A DNA stretch of 64,000 nucleotides from Phreatobacter stygius (GTDB lineage Bacteria; Pseudomonadota; Alphaproteobacteria; Rhizobiales; Phreatobacteraceae), in assembly GCF_005144885.1 (NCBI RefSeq), contig NZ_CP039690.1, forward strand, positions 1,116,001 through 1,180,000, given 5' to 3'. Positions 1-17,197 of this stretch are shown piece by piece. Numbering within the stretch: position 1 is the first letter of the stretch; each line of letters opens with the position of its first letter. The position numbers were made by a program, and so were the translations under genes. The notes below the pieces were generated by a model. The model saw nothing but the letters and a program-made list of their open reading frames with translations, made no database searches and was not told where the DNA came from.

Positions 1-1
1 T

Positions 2-793
2 CAGAACCTGGTCACCCGTTATGCCGGCACGGACAATGCCGAGGTGGTTCGCTTTCCCCCGGCGATGAGCCGGGCGGTGTTCGAACGCTCCGGCTACATG
101 AAGAGCTTCCCGCAGCTCGCCGGCACCATTCATTGCTTCCATGGCGATGGCGCGGCCCATCTCGACCTGATGCAGACCATCGAGGCCAATGGCGACTGGA
201 CCAAGGGCCAGACGGCGAGCGAGGTCGTGCTGACGCCGGCCGCCTGCTACCCGCTTTATCCGACGGCGGCCAAACGCGGCCCGCTTCCGGCCGAGGGCCG
301 GCTTTACGACCTCTTGTCCTATTGTTTCCGGCACGAGCCATCGCGCGACCCGGCGCGCCAGCAAATGTTCCGCATGCGTGAATTCGTCCGCATGGGCACG
401 CCCGACCAGGTGACCGCGTTCCGGGCCGACTGGCTCGATCGCGGCCAGAAGCTGATTGCCGAGATCGGCCTGCCCTTCTCGGTCGATGTCGCCAACGATC
501 CGTTCTTCGGCCGCACCGGCAAGATGCTGGCGGTCAACCAGCGCGACCAGCGGCTGAAATTCGAACTGCTGATTCCGATCGAAAGCGAGGCCAGCCCGAC
601 CGCCTGCCTCAGCTTCAACTATCACCAGGACCATTTCGGCAAGACCTTCGGCCTGGAAACCGCCGGTCCGGAAACCGCCCACACCGCCTGCGTCGGCTTC
701 GGCCACGAGCGGGTCATCCTGGCGCTGCTCAAGCATCACGGCACCGACGTCAAGGCCTGGCCGGCCGCCGTGCGCAAAGCGCTCTGGGGCTGA
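2..793 (+). CDS. Amino acid:[carrier protein] ligase, 5'-truncated by the window edge
   Basis: Class II aminoacyl-tRNA-synthetase-like enzyme that activates an amino acid with ATP and loads it on the phosphopantetheine of a small carrier protein instead of tRNA. The frame is already open at base 2, so the N-terminus lies outside the window; the first internal start is a GTG at 44. Counting from that GTG, motif 2 is seen as CFRHEPSRD (about 94-102) followed by RMREF, and motif 3 as GFGHERV (218-224). C69 (AACYP), E98 (FRHEPS) and C216 (just before motif 3) match the Cys-Glu-Cys zinc ligands of atypical seryl-tRNA synthetases and their carrier-protein-ligase relatives. No tRNA-binding arm is visible. 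A DUF1839 gene follows after 2 bases. The family was characterised in Bradyrhizobium and Agrobacterium, but the fate of the loaded amino acid is not known. The cognate carrier protein is probably just left of the window. Confidence 0.85.
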
Positions 794-795
794 CC

Positions 796-1812
796 ATGGC
801 GCCGGTCTTCGTCGAGCTCGACGCGGCAGCCTATGTGCGGCATCCGCTGCACGATCCGGCCAATCATTGGCCGGAAACCAATTGCCATACCGATCTGTTC
901 ATCGAGATCCTGCACACGCTGGGGCGCGAGCCGGCGGCCGGCCTCGGCATGACCCTGGCGCAGGATTTCGAGGGCGACCAGTTCACTTTCTTCAAGATGG
1001 CGGCGGCCGATCTTGAAACCCTGTTCGGCCTCGACGTCCAGGAACTGTCGATCTACCGGCCGCTGGCCGACCATATCGACGCGCAGCTGACGCGTGGCCG
1101 GCTGACCCTGATCGAGGTCGATGCGCATTATCTCGCCGACACCCGCGGCGTCACCTACAAGACCGGCCATTCCAAGACGACCATCGCGGTGAACCGGTTC
1201 GAGCGCTCCCCGGCCCGCCTCGGCTACTTCCACAATGCCGGCTATTTCGAAGCCGAAGGTGCCGATGTCGAGGCGATGTTCGGTTTCGGCTCGGCGCCCC
1301 AGCCGGTGCTGCCGCCCTATGTCGAATTCGTCAAGGTGATCGGACCGGGGCTGACCGGCCAGGCCTTGCTCGACGCCGCCATCGAGCGCCTCGCCGGCCA
1401 CTGGGCCCGGCGGCCCCGGACCAACCCGATCGACGCCTACCGGGCCGCGCTGCCGGCCCATCTCGATTGGCTGGTGGCCGAGCCGCCCTGTTCGTTCCAC
1501 CCCTATGCCTTCAACACGGCCCGCCAGTTCGGTGCCAATATCGCGCTCGCCGGCGCTCACCTGGCCTGGCTCGGCAGCCAGGGCATTGGCGGCCTTGCCG
1601 GGGCCGTCGGCCTTTGCGACCGCATGACCACCGCCGCCAAGACCTTCCAGTTCCTGCTGGCGCGCGCGCTCGCCCGCAAGCGTTTCGACGCGCTCGACCC
1701 GGCGCTCGAAGCGGTCGCCCGCGACTACGACCAGCTGGTCGACGACGTGTCCACCGCATTCCGCTTCGGCGCGTCGCCCGAGGCGCGTCCTCAGGTTCGA
1801 GCGGCATCCTAG
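796..1812 (+). CDS. DUF1839 family protein
   Basis: 338-residue protein of the DUF1839 family, with no known activity. It starts at an ATG 2 bases after the ligase stop and ends 7 bases before the GH2 gene, so it is co-translated with both. No signal peptide or membrane segment is visible, so it is probably cytoplasmic. Conserved-looking stretches are WPETNCHTDLFIE near residue 26, FEGDQFTFFK near 57 and YFHNAGYFE near 144. As I recall, DUF1839 genes are regular neighbours of amino acid:carrier-protein ligases in rhizobia, so a role in using or transferring the carrier-bound amino acid is the natural inference; nothing in the sequence proves it. The family assignment is more secure than any function. 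Confidence 0.8.
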   Translation: MAPVFVELDAAAYVRHPLHDPANHWPETNCHTDLFIEILHTLGREPAAGLGMTLAQDFEGDQFTFFKMAAADLETLFGLDVQELSIYRPLADHIDAQLTRGRLTLIEVDAHYLADTRGVTYKTGHSKTTIAVNRFERSPARLGYFHNAGYFEAEGADVEAMFGFGSAPQPVLPPYVEFVKVIGPGLTGQALLDAAIERLAGHWARRPRTNPIDAYRAALPAHLDWLVAEPPCSFHPYAFNTARQFGANIALAGAHLAWLGSQGIGGLAGAVGLCDRMTTAAKTFQFLLARALARKRFDALDPALEAVARDYDQLVDDVSTAFRFGASPEARPQVRAAS

Positions 1813-1819
1813 GGTCGAC

Positions 1820-4282
1820 ATGGCTCTTGTTCGCGGCATATCGGGCGACGAGATCGCCGCGCTGGAGACTGGCTGGACGCTCGCCCTTTGCGCACCCGAC
1901 GCGGCGACGACGCCAGCCGAGGCGGAAGCCTTGACCGGCTGGCTGCCCGCGCCCGTTCCGGGCACCGTCGCGCAGGCGCTGCGTGCGGCCGGGCGCTGGT
2001 CGCTCGGTCAGCCCGGGGATTTGCACGACCAGGATGCCTGGTATCGCCTTCGCTTTGCCGCGACCGGCCCGCAGACCCTGCGCCTCGAGGGCCTCGCAAC
2101 GCTTGCCGAGGTGTTTCTCGACGGCGAGCCGGTGCTGGTGTCGCACTCGATGTTCCTGTGCCATGAGGTCGACTTCACCGGCACCGGCCGGCACGCCCTG
2201 GCGATCCGGTTCAAGGCCCTGAACCCGGCTCTGGCCTCGGCCAAGGGCCCGCGCCCGCGCTGGCGGCCGATGATGATCACGCCGGGAAGCCTGCGCCTGA
2301 TCCGCACCACGCCGCTCGGCCATATGCCCGGCTGGTCGCCGCCGGTCGCCACCGTCGGTCCATGGCGCGCCATCACCTGCACCACGCGGCGCGCCCCGTT
2401 GAGGGTCGCGGCGCTCAGCCTGCTGCCCCGGCTCGACGGCCAGACCGGCATCCTCGATGCCGACATCCGCTTCGATCGCGCCGTCGCGACGCCGGTGGAG
2501 CTTGCCTGTGCCGGCGCCGGCATCGCGCTCGACCGGATCGCCCCGGACCGCTTCGCCGGCCGCCTCGTTCTCGACGGCATCGCGCCATGGTGGCCGCATA
2601 CCCATGGCGAGCCGGCCCTGCACGCCGCCGCCATCCGTGCCGGCGAAACCACCATCGACCTTGGCCGCGTCGGCTTCCGCAGGCTCGAACTCGACCGCGG
2701 CGGCGATGGAACGGGCTTTGGGCTGATCGTCAATGGCCAACCGGTGTTCTGTCGCGGCGCCTCATGGATGCCGCCGGACCCGGTGGCGCTCGGCTCCGGC
2801 GATCCCCTGCCGCTGCTGGCGCTGGCGCGCGATGCCGGCATGAACATGCTGCGCATTTCCGGCACCACCGCGCCGGCCTCGCAGGTCTTTCACGACGCCT
2901 GCGACGCGCTCGGCATCCTGGTCTGGCAGGACTTGCCATTTGCCAATTTCGATTATCCCGCCGCCGATCCGGCCTTCGCCGGCCTGGTCGAAGCCGAGGC
3001 GTGCCAGTTGCTCGACCGCCTGCAGGCCTCGCCGTCCGCGGCGATCGTTTGCGGCGGCAGCGAGATCGCCCAGCAGGCGGTCATGCTTGGCCTCACTCCC
3101 GCGCAGACAGCCAATCCGCTGTTCGATGACCTGTTTCCAAGGCTCACCGCCGAGCATGCCGGCCAGGCGATCTATCTGCCGCACACGCCATGGGGCGGCC
3201 CGCTGCCTTTCGCCGCCAATCAAGGGGTGACCCATTATTTCGGCGTCGGCGCCTATTGCCGGCCGATCGAGGATGTCCGTCGCGCGCAGGTGCGTTTTGC
3301 TTCCGAATGCCTCGCCTTCGCCAATGTGCCGAGCCCGGCGCGGCTCAGGGCATCGACGGTGCGCGATCCCAACGACATCGACTGGAAGGCCGGTGTGCCA
3401 CGCGATGCCGGCGCCGGCTGGGATTTCGAGGACACCCGCGATCATTATGTCGGCCTGCTCTCCGGCCTCGACCCGGCGGCGCTGCGCATCGACGATCCCG
3501 AACGCTATCTCGCACTCGGCCGCGCCGCGCCGGCCGAAGTGATGGAGGCGGTGTTTGCCGAGTGGCGGCGCCCGGGCTCGTCATGCGCCGGTGGACTGGT
3601 CTGGTTCCTCAACGATCTCGCGCCCGGCGCCGGCTGGGGCGTCATCGACGCGGCCGGCGAGCCGAAATCGACCTATTTCGCGCTGAAGCGGGCCTTCCGA
3701 CCGGTTCATGTCGGCCTGACCGATGAGGGCTTGAACGGCTTCGGCATTCATCTGGTCAACGAAACCACGGATACGCGCGACCTGACCCTGGTTCTGGCCT
3801 GCTATGGCGAAACACCTCATCCGCTGGTGAAAACCGAGACGGCGCTGACGCTCGCGCCCCGCAGCGCGACCAGCCTGTCCAGCGACGCGCTGATCGGCCG
3901 CTTCTTCGACATCACCCATGCCTATCGTTTCGGTCCGCCAGCCCATGATGCGACGGTCGCCCGCCTCGTCGACCCGGATGGCGCGGTTGTCGCCGAAGCC
4001 GTCCATGTGCTGCCCGGCCGCGCCGCGGCTCCCCGCGACATCGGCTTGCAAGCCCAGGTCGAAATGCGGGACGGCGGCGCCGCGCTCAGGGTGTCGACCG
4101 ATCGCTTCGCCCGCTTCGTCACCATTGACGACGATCATTTTGAGGCCGGCGACCAGGGGTTCTGCCTGACACCCGGCGAAAGCCGGCTGATCCCGCTGAC
4201 CGCCAAGACCGCAAAGCCTGTGCCGCGAGGCCGCATTCAGGCCCTGAACGGCCATTCCGTCGCCTATGGGGACGTTTCATGA
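1820..4282 (+). CDS. Glycoside hydrolase family 2 (beta-mannosidase-like) protein
   Basis: 820-residue GH2-type protein with an N-terminal jelly-roll sugar-binding domain, an immunoglobulin-like domain and a TIM barrel from about residue 300. The barrel opens with FCRGASWMP and GMNMLRISG, typical of the beta-mannosidase branch. The acid/base glutamate is probably E415 (GGSEIAQQ) and the nucleophile E496 (FASECLAF), so both catalytic acids seem kept, although the usual N-E context around the first is altered to S-E. There is no signal peptide, so it should act in the cytoplasm. That is odd for a degradative enzyme and suggests it works on a lipid-linked or soluble intermediate of the adjacent polysaccharide pathway. 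It overlaps the next gene by ATGA, implying coupled translation. Substrate is unknown; mannosidase is a family-level guess. Confidence 0.8.
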   Translation: MALVRGISGDEIAALETGWTLALCAPDAATTPAEAEALTGWLPAPVPGTVAQALRAAGRWSLGQPGDLHDQDAWYRLRFAATGPQTLRLEGLATLAEVFLDGEPVLVSHSMFLCHEVDFTGTGRHALAIRFKALNPALASAKGPRPRWRPMMITPGSLRLIRTTPLGHMPGWSPPVATVGPWRAITCTTRRAPLRVAALSLLPRLDGQTGILDADIRFDRAVATPVELACAGAGIALDRIAPDRFAGRLVLDGIAPWWPHTHGEPALHAAAIRAGETTIDLGRVGFRRLELDRGGDGTGFGLIVNGQPVFCRGASWMPPDPVALGSGDPLPLLALARDAGMNMLRISGTTAPASQVFHDACDALGILVWQDLPFANFDYPAADPAFAGLVEAEACQLLDRLQASPSAAIVCGGSEIAQQAVMLGLTPAQTANPLFDDLFPRLTAEHAGQAIYLPHTPWGGPLPFAANQGVTHYFGVGAYCRPIEDVRRAQVRFASECLAFANVPSPARLRASTVRDPNDIDWKAGVPRDAGAGWDFEDTRDHYVGLLSGLDPAALRIDDPERYLALGRAAPAEVMEAVFAEWRRPGSSCAGGLVWFLNDLAPGAGWGVIDAAGEPKSTYFALKRAFRPVHVGLTDEGLNGFGIHLVNETTDTRDLTLVLACYGETPHPLVKTETALTLAPRSATSLSSDALIGRFFDITHAYRFGPPAHDATVARLVDPDGAVVAEAVHVLPGRAAAPRDIGLQAQVEMRDGGAALRVSTDRFARFVTIDDDHFEAGDQGFCLTPGESRLIPLTAKTAKPVPRGRIQALNGHSVAYGDVS

Positions 4283-6048
4283 TCCCCGTGACTTTCGACG
4301 GCGTCATGGCCAAGATTCACCCGGCCCGAGGCGATCACACGTCCGGTCTTGGCGTCGTGATCGTCCCGCCGCACGGCGTCGAGGCACTCGCCGCGACCAA
4401 GAGCCTGCGCCTGCTCGCCGACGCTCTCGCCGCCAAGGGCCATGCCTGCTTGCGCCTCGACCTGCCGGGCACCGGCGATTCGCTCGGTACCGACGCCGAT
4501 GCCGACCGCATCGAGGCCTGGACCCGCAGCATCGTTTCGGCGGCGCAGGTCCTGTCGACCCATACTGGCGTCACCGGAACAGTCGTGCTCGGCTTGCGCC
4601 TGGGTGCGCTGCTGGCGGCGCGCGCGGCGCCTGATATCGACAACCTTGCCGGCCTCGTCTTGCTCGACCCGATCACCCGCGGCCGCACCTATGCCCGGGA
4701 GCTGACGGTGACCGCGCGTGCGGTCGCGGAAGGTGCACGGCTCGATCCGGACGCGACTTCGACGCCGGCCGGCGTGCTGATCGGCGGGCTTCTGACCAGC
4801 ACGGCCACGCTCGAGGCGCTGCGCGGGCTCGACATCGCCAAGCTGCCCGAGCCGGCAGCGCCGGTCCTCGTCCTGCACCGCAAGGGCGCGCAGGATGCGG
4901 CGCCCCTTGCCACGGCCTGGCCGGCAAGCCCGGTCATCCGGGAAGAGGCCTCCGGCCTCGACGGCATCGCGCTCAGTCCGACCATGGCCGTCACGCCGCG
5001 CGCCGCATTCGACCGTGCGGTCGCCTGGATCGACGGCCTGTCCAAGCGTGGGACGGTCCCGGCCGTCGCGCCGGCGCCCGCCATGCTTACGGGACCGGAC
5101 TTTGTCGAGGAAGCGGCAACGTTCGGCCCCGACAGGCGGCTGTTCGGCGTCATTTGCCAGCCCACGGCGAGCGAGGCCACCGGCCCGATCCTGCTCATCC
5201 TCAATGCCGGTCGCAATTCCCATGTTGGCTGGGCCCGGACCGGCGTCACCATTGCCCGCCGTCTGGCGGCCCAGGGTATCGCCTCGTTCCGCATGGATCT
5301 CGGTGGTGTCGGCGACGGCGCCGAGCGGCCCGGCACAGCCGATACCATCGACGCCGTGCTCTACAATCCCGCGCTCACGCCGGAGGTCGAAGCGGCGGTC
5401 GATCTGCTCGACGCCGGCGGCTACCGGTCCATCGCCGTGATGGGTGCCTGCAGCGGCGCGCATCTGGCGCTGCAGGCCGCGGCGGCCGACGCCCGCATTG
5501 GCGGCGTGGTCCTGGTCAATATCCAGCGGTTCGTCTGGCGCCGGGGCGAAACCGTCGAGCAGGCGATCGCCTCCAGCTATGCGGTTGCGTCCAGCTATGT
5601 GTCCAAGCTGTGGGACCGGCGCGCCTGGACCAAGGTGCTGACCGGCGAGAGGCCCTTGCTGCCGCTGGCGCTCGAGCTGACCAAGCGGCTGGCCGCCCGG
5701 GCACGGGGCTTCATTCCCTCGCCGGAAACCCGTGCCGCCAGGGCGCTGATGGACAAGCTCCATCGGCAGGATGTGCCGGTCGAGATCGTCTTCAGCGAAG
5801 ACGATGCCGGCCTGGAAGAACTGGCGCGCCATTTCGGCTCGCGTGGCCGATGGCTGACCCGCATGCCCAGGGTCCGTCTGAACTACATTGCCAATACCGA
5901 CCACGATCTGACCCCCGAGGCCGCCAGGGACGCGCTTTTCGTCCACACCCTTGCTGCGGCCGGGACGTGGAAGACATCGCCCGCCGGCCAGGTCCGGCCG
6001 GCGGAGCAACGGCACGGCTTCTGCTTAGCGTTACGTCAGCCTCAATAG
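4279..6048 (+). CDS. Tandem alpha/beta hydrolase, two domains, noncanonical nucleophile elbows
   Basis: 589 residues containing two alpha/beta hydrolase folds in a row (about 1-255 and 270-575). The nucleophile elbow of the first reads GLRLG at 105-109, placing R107 where the catalytic serine should be, so this half is probably not a normal hydrolase. The second elbow reads GACSG at 389-393 with C391 in the nucleophile position, like the Cys elbow of dienelactone hydrolases; a SEDD acid and a TDHD histidine follow near the C-terminus, so this half looks active. From memory, the same pair of elbow types occurs in the two separate exosortase A system-associated hydrolases, which would make this a fusion of both. 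It overlaps the GH2 stop by ATGA and is the last gene of the compact unit. A thioesterase role on carrier-bound aminoacyl groups is possible but unproved. Confidence 0.75.
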   Translation: MIPVTFDGVMAKIHPARGDHTSGLGVVIVPPHGVEALAATKSLRLLADALAAKGHACLRLDLPGTGDSLGTDADADRIEAWTRSIVSAAQVLSTHTGVTGTVVLGLRLGALLAARAAPDIDNLAGLVLLDPITRGRTYARELTVTARAVAEGARLDPDATSTPAGVLIGGLLTSTATLEALRGLDIAKLPEPAAPVLVLHRKGAQDAAPLATAWPASPVIREEASGLDGIALSPTMAVTPRAAFDRAVAWIDGLSKRGTVPAVAPAPAMLTGPDFVEEAATFGPDRRLFGVICQPTASEATGPILLILNAGRNSHVGWARTGVTIARRLAAQGIASFRMDLGGVGDGAERPGTADTIDAVLYNPALTPEVEAAVDLLDAGGYRSIAVMGACSGAHLALQAAAADARIGGVVLVNIQRFVWRRGETVEQAIASSYAVASSYVSKLWDRRAWTKVLTGERPLLPLALELTKRLAARARGFIPSPETRAARALMDKLHRQDVPVEIVFSEDDAGLEELARHFGSRGRWLTRMPRVRLNYIANTDHDLTPEAARDALFVHTLAAAGTWKTSPAGQVRPAEQRHGFCLALRQPQ

Positions 6049-6130
6049 ACGTCCCGATCCGGGACGGCGCCCAGCGCGCCGCCACCGGGCAGGGACAGCT
6101 GACGAATGCGCAAGCTGAAGAGTCTCGACC

Positions 6131-7579
6131 ATGACATTGAAGGACCTGGACCTGCCCATGGGCGTCGTGGCACGACGCGCTCGCGGCGGATATGCCTGGA
6201 CGCGCCTGACCTTGATGATCGCGACCGCGGCGATCGACTGGATGGTCATAGCCGGCACCTCCTACATGGTGTCGCTGGTCTATAACCGTTTCAACAGCGG
6301 CGATTGGTGGACGATCAAGGCTCAGGTCGACCTGGCCCTGCTGGTCTCCAGCCTGTTCGTCATGCTGAACGTCGTGCGCGGGCAATACCAATTCAGCAAC
6401 TATATCGCGCCCAATCACCGGATTGGCACAGCCTTGACGCTGTGGGGCGCGACCTTCGTTACCTTGATGGCCTTCGCCTTCGCCACCAAGACCAGTGACG
6501 GCTTCTCGCGCGTCGCGGTCATCGCCACCTTCGTCACCGGCTTCCCGCTGCTGCTGCTGGCCCGGCGGGCGGCCGGCCGCCTGATGACGCTCGGCTCGAA
6601 GATCGGCATGATTCCCGCGCGACGCGTCATGCTGGTCGGCCGCGAGAATGACGTCACCGCCTTCGCCATGCGCTATCAGCCCTGGAACGCCGGCATGCAC
6701 ATCGCCGGCACCGGTCTGTTGGCCGATGAGGGACGCGCCGGATCCGGCCGCGGCGATATCGCACGCATCGTCGCTCAGGCCCGCCAGATGTATCTCGACG
6801 ACGTGCTGATCATCGTGCCCTGGTCCGAGACCGCCACGATCGACAGCGTCATCGACGCCTTCATGCGCATGCCGGTGACCATCCACCTCGGCCCGGAACG
6901 CATCTTCGACCGGTTCGACGAGATCAAGATCGCCAAGACCGGCGGCATCGCCAGCCTGCAGCTCGGCCGTCCGCCGCTGTCCGCCGGCGAGATCATGATG
7001 AAGCGCATGCTGGATGTCGGGCTGGCCTCTTTCGCCCTGTTCCTGTTCACGCCCGTGCTGCTGCTGATCGCGCTCGCGATCAAGATCGACAGCCCCGGCC
7101 CGGCGCTGTTCCGGCAGCGCCGTCTCGGCTTCAACCAGCGCGCCTTTTCCATCGTCAAGTTCCGCACCATGACGGTCGAGGACGACGGCGACGCCGTGCG
7201 CCAGGCGACCCGCGGCGACCAGCGCATCACCCGCATCGGCCGGTTCCTGCGGCGCTGGAATCTCGACGAACTGCCGCAGCTCATCAATGTGCTGGGTGGC
7301 CAGATGTCGCTGGTCGGCCCGCGTCCGCATGCCATCGCCCACGACCGCCAATATGATGACGGCCGCATCGCGCTCTATGCCCGGCGCCACAACGTCAAGC
7401 CGGGCATTACCGGCTGGGCACAGGTCCACGGGCTGCGCGGCGAGACCGACACGGTCGAGAAAATGCAGGCCAGGGTCGAGCACGATCTCTACTACATCGA
7501 CAACTGGTCGGTGCTGCTCGACCTCGAAATCATGGCGCGGACCGTGTTCTCGCGGAAGGCTTATGACAACGCCTTCTGA
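6131..7579 (+). CDS. Exopolysaccharide polyprenyl glycosylphosphotransferase (WbaP/WcaJ/ExoY family)
   Basis: 482-residue integral membrane enzyme that transfers hexose-1-phosphate from a UDP-sugar to undecaprenyl phosphate, the committed first step of repeat-unit assembly. It has about four hydrophobic segments in the first 150 residues, a Rossmann-like CoA-binding middle region (ARRVMLVGREND), one membrane helix near residue 300, then the catalytic core. Core motifs are KFRTM (from K343), DELPQLINVLGGQMSLVGPRP (around 377-397) and KPGITGWAQVHG (about 422). Full length for the family. It is separated from the hydrolase by 82 bases and overlaps the GNAT gene, so it belongs to the same polysaccharide operon. 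Whether it adds glucose or galactose cannot be read from the sequence. Confidence 0.93.
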   Translation: MTLKDLDLPMGVVARRARGGYAWTRLTLMIATAAIDWMVIAGTSYMVSLVYNRFNSGDWWTIKAQVDLALLVSSLFVMLNVVRGQYQFSNYIAPNHRIGTALTLWGATFVTLMAFAFATKTSDGFSRVAVIATFVTGFPLLLLARRAAGRLMTLGSKIGMIPARRVMLVGRENDVTAFAMRYQPWNAGMHIAGTGLLADEGRAGSGRGDIARIVAQARQMYLDDVLIIVPWSETATIDSVIDAFMRMPVTIHLGPERIFDRFDEIKIAKTGGIASLQLGRPPLSAGEIMMKRMLDVGLASFALFLFTPVLLLIALAIKIDSPGPALFRQRRLGFNQRAFSIVKFRTMTVEDDGDAVRQATRGDQRITRIGRFLRRWNLDELPQLINVLGGQMSLVGPRPHAIAHDRQYDDGRIALYARRHNVKPGITGWAQVHGLRGETDTVEKMQARVEHDLYYIDNWSVLLDLEIMARTVFSRKAYDNAF

Positions 7580-15760: not shown

Positions 15761-17197
15761 TCAGGCTTCGCCCCTGCGTTGCCTGAGATAGGCGATCCGG
15801 CCGACCAGCGCGCTGCGCACCCCGGCAAGATCGATCGCCAGCGCCACCACGCCATAGATGGCAATGCCGGTCGCGATGCTGGCGGCAAGCCCGATGATGC
15901 TGTCCTCGGGATCGCTCCATTCGATCAGCGCGGTGGGCACCGCCATGACCACCACGGCCGCCACCACCTTGACGATCGGCCGCCAGGCAAAAGGCAAAGG
16001 ATGGGCCTGCCGCGACAAGAGATAACCGACCACCACGCCGGCCGCCTCGGCGAGCACCAGCGAGAAGGCCGCACCCGCCAGGCCGAAGCGGCCAACCAGC
16101 AGCAGCATGGCCAGGACGTTGACGATCAGGATCGCCGTGCCATGGGCCACCATCAGCTTCGGCTTCTTGGCGAGGTGGAAGCTGACCTGGACGAATTGCT
16201 GCGAGATGGTCTGGAACAGCCAGGCGAACACCAGGATCGGGATCAGGCTTGCCGCGGTTGCGCGAAATTCCGGCCCGAGGATCAGGGCGGCAAGATGTGG
16301 TGCGACAATGGCCAGGCCGACGACCGCCGGCATGACCACCGCGAGCAACAGTTCGCCGCTCTTGGTCAGGTGCGCGTCGACAGCTGCCGGCCCGTCCTCG
16401 GCAAGCGACCGGATCGCCATCGGCACGACGGCCGAGGCGACCGAGAGGGCCGGAAACAGGATGATCTGGCGGGTCAGATCCGCCGCCGCGCCATAGATGC
16501 CCGCGGCATGGTCGCCGAGCAGATAGGCGACCAGCAGCCGGTCGAGCGCCGAATGAAGTGCGAAGACGCCGCCGGACAGCGCCATCGGCACGCCGAAGCG
16601 CAACATCTCGGCGAAGACCTCGCGGTTGAAGGGTTTGAGCGGCGCGCGCCAGACCGTTCTGGAAAAGCACAGCGAGGTGATCAGATAGGCGCCGGCGACC
16701 CCGGCGACCAGGCCGAGACCGCCATAGCCGAGATGGACCAGCAACAGCGACAGACCAATGGTCATGATCGCGCGGAAAATGGTTGCGCGCATATAGGCGC
16801 CCGACTGCTGGCGCGCCCGCAGGATTTCCTGGCCAAGCTCGAACAGGCCGAGCGCCAGTGCCAGGGCGATGGCCGCCGCCGCCCGCTCGATCGGCACCCC
16901 CACGCCATAAGCCGTGACCACAAAGGCAATGGGCGTCGACGCGACCGAAATGACATAGGCGGCCAGCGCGGTGAGCCGGATGTCGACCCCTCCGCCTTCC
17001 GACTGGAAGCGCAGCACCGACAGCCTGACCCAGGTGAACAGGAGCGCCGAGACGATGCCGGCAATGCTCATGCCGACGACATAAAAACCATATTCCGTCG
17101 GCGTCAGCAGACGGGTGAACAGGACGACCGACAGGAAGCCGAAAGCGGCCGACGTCCCATGCGCGATCATATAGGTCGAAGTCTGGCGGATCAGCAT
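15761..17197 (-). CDS. Oligosaccharide flippase family protein (Wzx-like)
   Basis: 478 residues with twelve or more hydrophobic helices, the MOP superfamily layout of Wzx O-unit/EPS flippases that move undecaprenyl-linked repeat units to the periplasm. It opens with MLIRQTSTYMIAHGTSAAFGFLSVVLF-type sequence (amphipathic start, then helix 1) and has ALHSALDRLLVAYLLGDHAAGIYGAAAD near 260, a common mid-protein segment in this family. Its ATG overlaps the stop of the upstream GH10 gene in a TGATG junction, so the flippase is translationally coupled to an endoglycanase. It completes a Wzx/Wzy-type system with the chain-length protein, although no Wzy polymerase is visible here. Confidence 0.88.
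   Translation of the reverse strand: MLIRQTSTYMIAHGTSAAFGFLSVVLFTRLLTPTEYGFYVVGMSIAGIVSALLFTWVRLSVLRFQSEGGGVDIRLTALAAYVISVASTPIAFVVTAYGVGVPIERAAAAIALALALGLFELGQEILRARQQSGAYMRATIFRAIMTIGLSLLLVHLGYGGLGLVAGVAGAYLITSLCFSRTVWRAPLKPFNREVFAEMLRFGVPMALSGGVFALHSALDRLLVAYLLGDHAAGIYGAAADLTRQIILFPALSVASAVVPMAIRSLAEDGPAAVDAHLTKSGELLLAVVMPAVVGLAIVAPHLAALILGPEFRATAASLIPILVFAWLFQTISQQFVQVSFHLAKKPKLMVAHGTAILIVNVLAMLLLVGRFGLAGAAFSLVLAEAAGVVVGYLLSRQAHPLPFAWRPIVKVVAAVVVMAVPTALIEWSDPEDSIIGLAASIATGIAIYGVVALAIDLAGVRSALVGRIAYLRQRRGEA

Follow-up and report, generated by a model that had tools for sequence, protein, structure and literature searches.

What becomes of an amino acid once a dedicated ligase has charged a carrier protein with it? 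Structures and activities of such a ligase and its carrier protein have been available for over a decade, and Mocibob's papers of 2010 and 2013 reportedly detail how ligase homologues charge the carrier protein with an amino acid; to our knowledge, the published biochemistry of these pairs ends at the loaded carrier protein. The next step matters, since the accessible part of a 2022 review describes homologous ligases as loading an amino acid onto a carrier protein and still calls the biological role of both unknown (PMC9437257). We considered this question at the left edge of a 64,000-nucleotide stretch of Phreatobacter stygius (hereafter the window; contig NZ_CP039690.1, G000:C1:1116001-1180000, on a 7.35 Mb chromosome). 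There, the ligase gene belongs to a conserved unit of six genes, encoding in order a carrier protein (CP), an acyl-CoA-dehydrogenase-like flavoprotein (ACAD), the ligase, a DUF1839 protein, a GH2 glycosidase and a double alpha/beta hydrolase. The reading that we favour has an aminoacyl group, probably in oxidised form, amide-linked to a cytoplasmic amino sugar that sometimes feeds surface glycans, and the modelled fold of DUF1839 makes this protein the likely joining enzyme. The genes are as follows.

L002:16435-16686, left of the window edge: CP gene, PF00550 at 36.4 bits
L002:16689-17882, left of the window edge: ACAD gene
1-793, plus strand: amino acid:[carrier protein] ligase, of which the C-terminal 263 of 302 codons lie in the window; full gene L002:17885-18793, 302 amino acids
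796-1812, plus strand: DUF1839 protein (PF08893), predicted carrier-protein-dependent cysteine amide synthase; 2-base gap after the ligase
1820-4282, plus strand: GH2 glycosidase of beta-mannosidase type, with an N-terminal PF22666 and an Ig-mannosidase PF17753 domain; 7-base gap after DUF1839
4279-6048, plus strand: double alpha/beta hydrolase with a TIGR03101-like and a TIGR03100-like half; ATGA overlap with the GH2 gene

An earlier note, made from the letters of the window, had described the last four genes; frames, gaps, the ATGA overlap and family assignments all agree with it. It had also proposed a search to the left of the window for a carrier-protein gene, which is indeed present two genes before the ligase. 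The unit is thus larger than first reported, with CP and ACAD added upstream. The start of the ligase gene lies 116 bases before the first base of the window, and the gaps from CP to ACAD and from ACAD to ligase are 2 bases each. Homologue length guided the choice of the ATG at L002:16435 as CP start; a longer frame opens at 16366. A TetR gene lies farther upstream of CP on the same strand.

Which of these proteins could take the amino acid from its carrier? DUF1839 matches PF08893 with 363.2 bits (gathering cut-off 22.5). Cys30 and His146 are invariant in 83 of 83 DUF1839 sequences and His125 is kept in 82, while position 129 is Thr in 79 sequences and Ser in the other 4. An AlphaFold (AF2) model built from 27 sequences reached a pLDDT of 90.9 and a pTM of 0.90. 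Searched against the PDB with Foldseek, it gave 19 matches at E <= 0.001, all of them AziU2-U3 (best 6.4e-8), CtaG (8.0e-7) or CcbD (2.5e-5); the CcbD-type matches (E 2.5e-5 to 8.7e-4, TM 0.53-0.60) span 347-360 columns, so that the papain-like fold is covered over its whole length. Since the next match, an IdeS-like papain-fold protease, has an E of 0.049 and a TM of about 0.2, the resemblance is to the AziU2-U3/CtaG/CcbD group and not to papain folds generally. AziU3 also acts on a carrier-bound substrate. CcbD, according to the accessible part of its description, is CP-dependent and works by a ping-pong mechanism, in which CP-tethered proline is first taken up by its Cys and then transferred to a thio-octose, an amino sugar, at the amino group (PMC12945683). 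The suggestion in the earlier note that DUF1839 serves as a transfer factor is backed by this fold match. Grouping DUF1839 with CcbD/CtaG would name the next step of the pathway, its nucleophile (Cys30) and the class of acceptor (an amine, probably an amino sugar), and the question therefore becomes testable with purified proteins. Our literature search, for which subscription papers were mostly out of reach, found no experimental study of DUF1839.

Do the six genes belong together outside the window? Scanning genomes with DUF1839 returned 177 relatives, of which the best 80 loci were retained for locus counts. Among these, the closest genus-named loci are Phreatobacter metagenome-assembled genomes (MAGs), and the source taxa comprise Alpha- and Betaproteobacteria, a Steroidobacter MAG, an acidobacterium and actinobacteria. 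Rhizobium is heavily represented in the set; at 80% identity, 82 DUF1839 proteins, plasmid copies included, collapse to 31. CP, ACAD, ligase, DUF1839 and GH2 keep their order and strand within 6 kb in 74/80 loci, which excludes chance association. Three of the six exceptions (L028, L051, L064) stop at contig ends; L068, where ligase residues 140-302 are left and the preceding 4 kb hold no CP or ACAD, is likely a truncated copy; in L062 and L069, CP, ACAD and ligase are absent from the fetched flank. GH2 accompanies DUF1839 in 79/80 loci, the remaining one being a contig end, and the double hydrolase is found in 59/80, no more than 1.5 kb after GH2 in 22. A further 22 cassette loci of about 4 kb each contain ACAD-ligase-DUF1839 in 22/22 and GH2 in 20/22. 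For one of the other two, G390, a longer stretch places GH2 2.6 kb downstream; for G186, the roughly 7 kb that follow DUF1839 contain no GH2, and a GH2 52% identical over its length sits on another contig.

Counted by genome, DUF1839 is sparse: within the class, 2 of 190 genomes carry it, and within the order 48 of 297, of which 12 belong to the window's own genus. The ligase exceeds its cut-off in 63/297 genomes of the order, and all 48 DUF1839 genomes have it on the same contig, at a gap of 30-454 bases (median 40; Fisher p 2e-42 for co-occurrence in the 297 genomes, uncorrected for relatedness). Ligase, DUF1839 and GH2 thus travel together far beyond chance, as expected of the module that the earlier note proposed. 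Of the 15 ligase loci that lack DUF1839, seven (L094-L100) were inspected: ACAD adjoins the ligase in 7/7 and a recognisable CP is present in five; a scan of nine neighbours of these loci gave no shared acceptor enzyme. Possibly, they represent a second amino acid:CP pathway. A PF01943 flippase was seen near the ligase in L095 and L097, and an AMP-binding enzyme and an esterase in L096.

The unit also occurs on plasmids, with DUF1839 present in 59 plasmid records. Nine of 11 plasmid stretches examined carry CP-ACAD-ligase-DUF1839-GH2, one is an unannotated record and one has DUF1839 alone. In the last (L093:11962-12954, a Rhizobium plasmid), neither ligase nor GH2 is annotated with DUF1839, which precedes a giant nonribosomal peptide synthetase (NRPS) gene by about 4 kb and may be a decayed copy. 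A phage origin of the cassette was ruled out, as DUF1839 has no match in the phage collection.

Three genomes have the set split over contigs and nonetheless keep its parts. G186, where GH2 alone has moved, is one. The others are two Propionibacteriaceae MAGs, with DUF1839-GH2 at one locus (L062, L069) and the ligase on another contig, where CP, ACAD, ligase and double hydrolase stand together (L123, L124). The Propionibacteriaceae split therefore separates a loading half that includes the hydrolase from a ligation half that includes GH2. Because the hydrolase stays with CP-ACAD-ligase there, we place it on the carrier-protein side, an assignment thinly supported by two related genomes.

What can be said of the loading enzymes? 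The ligase scores above the cut-off of 357 bits for family NF005479 (amino acid--[ACP] ligase), with 435.1 bits from the truncated frame and 484.8 from the genome. At 302 residues, it lacks the tRNA-binding domain. Positions Cys121 (88/90, two gaps), Glu166 (88/90, two Asp) and Cys269 (90/90) are conserved, which we take to be the Cys/Glu/Cys zinc ligands. CP carries the phosphopantetheine motif GMTSF, with Ser35 in 86/86. Both are clear homologues of the Bll0957 and Atu2571 ligase/carrier pairs: the ligase matches the Bll0957-type structure 4h2w at 3e-99, and CP matches both the carrier protein crystallised with that ligase (4h2w_C, 4e-22) and Atu2571 (PDB 2jq4, 4e-21), whose ligase partner is presumably Atu2573.

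ACAD is less easily assigned. Aligned to 7p98_A, it has a residue other than Glu at what we take to be the catalytic Glu position of medium-chain acyl-CoA dehydrogenases, where 7p98_A itself has Thr; a nearly invariant N-D-R segment lies near this place. Some ACADs have their catalytic base elsewhere. With Foldseek, its AlphaFold model (pLDDT 91.2) finds TdsC first, then ACADs, with KijD3 at rank 39, and all 50 listed matches have a TM (query) of 0.73-0.81. By sequence and fold, it resembles carrier-protein flavin oxidases and N-oxygenases of the ACAD fold (6cxt, DnmZ, KijD3); 6cxt_B, annotated as a butyryl-CoA dehydrogenase, is presumably a carrier-protein-bound prolyl oxidase.

On the ligation side, GH2 matches the beta-mannosidase 2je8 at 1.8e-36. 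Glu415 and Glu496, presumably acid/base and nucleophile, are present in 87/87 sequences and align to the Glu residues of 2je8. With both intact, an active enzyme is expected from the alignment. By a crude hydropathy measure, CP, ligase, DUF1839 and GH2 are free of signal- and membrane-like segments, in keeping with the earlier report of a GH2 without signal peptide; the window's ACAD is just over the membrane threshold (1.91 versus 1.9), and 4 of 63 hydrolases also exceed it. The Cys-elbow noted earlier in the hydrolase is real: in its C-terminal half Cys391 and His542 are kept in 63/63 and Asp509 in 60, while the N-terminal half lacks a nucleophile, with Arg (25), Gly (36) or Ser (2) in its place. 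Each half matches one XrtA-associated hydrolase, 1 (TIGR03100, 4e-35) or 2 (TIGR03101, 1e-24), below the curated cut-offs (121 of 168 and 87 of 203 bits); unlike these, the two are fused here. Of 57 hydrolase open reading frames, 33 exceed 900 residues, all in Rhizobium-type loci; a PF13440 flippase match occurs in 33/33 of these and Hydrolase_4 also in 32/33, so that these proteins are fusions of a flippase with the double hydrolase. The annotated Rhizobium NLR16a copy has this fusion flanked by two GT4 genes. At an Agrobacterium locus (L012), where no double hydrolase was found, a 905-residue ATP-binding cassette (ABC) exporter follows GH2 (L012:13682-16399), in which Pfam sees just a single ABC module. 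A hydrolase fused to this ABC protein was ruled out, as the hydrolase profile matched nothing in it.

Taken together, we consider it reasonably probable that the cassette is a stand-alone aminoacyl-amide system. Judging by its homologues, the seryl-tRNA-synthetase-like ligase would activate a small amino acid and charge the phosphopantetheine of the dedicated CP. ACAD might then oxidise or hydroxylate the CP-bound aminoacyl group. Cys30 of DUF1839 would accept the acyl group and hand it to an amine, most likely of an amino sugar, in the manner of CcbD. On the acceptor side, GH2 would process a beta-glycoside within the cytoplasm, and the Cys-type double hydrolase could act as a CP-side thioesterase that clears wrong or stalled thioesters, as its place in the split loci suggests. 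The product may enter a surface glycan in some lineages, and in others the cassette may act alone.

Several observations weigh against this pathway. The DUF1839 fold match has a root-mean-square deviation of 5.4-7.1 and a TM of 0.53-0.61. Searching PDB sequences with a DUF1839 profile at E <= 10 returned no CcbD, and a sequence-level link between the two was dropped; we therefore claim a likeness of work, not membership. The C-(T/S)-H site, which the accessible part of an earlier paper assigns to a papain-like fold with a guessed glycan role (PMC10318531), appears to differ from the Cys-His-acid triad (Cys-His-Glu) of CcbD. The ACAD model agrees about equally well with monooxygenases and with dehydrogenases. 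Of the 63 ligase genomes, 15 have no DUF1839, which is therefore not the sole partner of the ligase, and G186 shows that linkage of DUF1839 to GH2 is not universal. Glycan-synthesis genes are also missing from most of the annotated plasmid loci.

Where, then, does the product go? The earlier note had the cassette embedded in an exopolysaccharide (EPS) locus, and in the window its neighbours do form a polysaccharide set: WcaJ, GT4, GT2, a deacetylase, Wzz, WecG and a flippase. The first lies outside the conserved cassette.

6131-7579, plus strand: WcaJ-type undecaprenyl-phosphate glucose phosphotransferase, TIGR03023 at 414.5 bits (cut-off 410.75)

It follows the hydrolase after 82 bases, and neither promoter- nor terminator-like sites turned up in a scan of 5900-6300 around the junction. 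WcaJ is followed by a GNAT-type protein (PF13480, window:7287-8780), possibly another acyl- or aminoacyl-transferase of the EPS locus; as listed, its frame overlaps WcaJ, and its true start is therefore probably later. The polysaccharide deacetylase within the locus (PF01522, window:11033-11959) could supply free sugar amino groups.

Such a setting invites the strict reading that the amino acid is placed on a lipid-linked glycan started by the WcaJ-type enzyme, which we find possible and yet doubtful. Twenty-five cassette genomes, hand-chosen from 49 for genus spread, were searched to a distance of 20 kb. PF02397, the WcaJ-type family, occurred in only 3/25, all of the window's genus. In the 80 loci, searched less sensitively with one protein in place of the family model, a WcaJ homologue flanks 9: seven Phreatobacter-like loci, Pararobbsia (L061) and an actinomycete (L080). 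WecG follows GH2 in an acidobacterium (L072). EPS linkage through WcaJ was accordingly dropped as a general rule; the embedding is mostly a trait of the window's genus. A looser glycan link fares better. The flippase fusion of 33 loci speaks for it, as do PF13440 flippases within 20 kb in 7/25 genomes; outside the window's genus these number 4/22 against 0.49 expected (Poisson p 0.0016), in counts from which short-contig drafts can hide gene links. In Agrobacterium, a cluster around Atu2577-2592, with Atu2577 and several glycosyltransferases, is assigned to an uncharacterised glycan said, in the accessible part of the source, to be needed for phenazine tolerance (PMC9790009); from locus numbers, the cassette Atu2571-2575 is inferred to lie beside it. 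Plasmids argue the other way. None of nine annotated cassettes lists a polymer-initiating transferase, only NLR16a lists adjoining glycosyltransferases, and those of Azospirillum, Mycetohabitans, Caballeronia and Phyllobacterium list no polysaccharide-synthesis operon, all in incomplete gene tables. Two Azospirillum stretches do have a GT9 gene about 5 kb before CP, and Mycetohabitans has an acyltransferase directly before CP, with lipid A aminoarabinose-transferase and lipoteichoic-acid-synthase-family genes within 10 kb. Nor is any cassette enzyme clearly membrane-bound by crude hydropathy. The exopolysaccharide link is thus only partly supported: EPS is a possible destination, not a general one.

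Could the product instead be a soluble amino-sugar conjugate that the cell makes in its cytoplasm and then exports as a signal or antibiotic, GH2 and hydrolase serving in maturation or self-protection? The nearest folds are natural-product enzymes, the distribution is sparse and partly plasmid-borne, and some loci have an exporter beside the cassette (of the major facilitator superfamily in Phyllobacterium, ABC in Agrobacterium). Yet no exporter, resistance or regulator gene is common to the annotated stretches examined, and the Rhizobium flippase fusion with its GT4 genes points to glycans; we regard this reading as rather unlikely. That the cassette aminoacylates a protein or peptide or takes part in non-ribosomal peptide synthesis, with its carbohydrate genes incidental, appears quite improbable. 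The title of the 2010 ligase paper puts the ligase near non-ribosomal peptide synthesis, and EpmA and elongation factor P (EF-P) genes adjoin the NLR16a cassette, but no NRPS domain occurs in the cassette, and GH2, with both Glu residues intact, stays beside DUF1839 in 79/80 loci and is kept even when unlinked. Directly upstream of a Rhizobium cassette, L084:6558-9384 holds EF-P, EpmA and a lysine-2,3-aminomutase-like gene, with two aminoacyl-tRNA-synthetase-derived enzymes adjacent.

How does this compare with known systems? The hypothesis of an amide to an amino sugar is not new. In its accessible part, a note added in proof of 2010 names an acyl carrier protein, a redox enzyme, Atu2574, a glycosidase and liposaccharide genes in this neighbourhood, guesses monooxygenation for the redox enzyme, and predicts that Atu2574 couples an amino acid, through an amide, to an amino group on a sugar of the cell surface (PMC2922099). 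This prediction, reached independently, also speaks for the pathway proposed above. By gene order, we infer Atu2574 to be DUF1839; the part of that text available gives no fold or active site for it. Since the pathway was already predicted there, the idea in the earlier note is an independent rediscovery. Beyond that prediction, the present analysis contributes the likeness of fold to CcbD/CtaG, a GH2 site that is intact, a hydrolase with one degenerate and one Cys-type half, loci in which the cassette is split, the fusion to a flippase, and the counts given above. Lincosamide synthetase (CcbC/LmbC, CP and CcbD/LmbD) differs from the cassette in using an NRPS-type adenylation domain and not a seryl-tRNA-synthetase-like ligase; no sequence similarity was found, the triads appear to differ, and the accessible descriptions mention no ACAD or GH2 partners. 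Shared with the cassette are a stand-alone loader, a CP and a papain-like Cys enzyme, which in lincosamide synthesis couples the amino acid with an amino sugar. We raise, with more doubt than conviction, the idea that lincosamide-synthetase-like logic operates outside antibiotics in several phyla: a translation-derived ligase would load the amino acid on a carrier protein, a flavoenzyme alter it there, and a CcbD-like cysteine synthase couple it with an amino sugar; once flipped out, this would enter surface glycans as a kind of substituent not yet seen.

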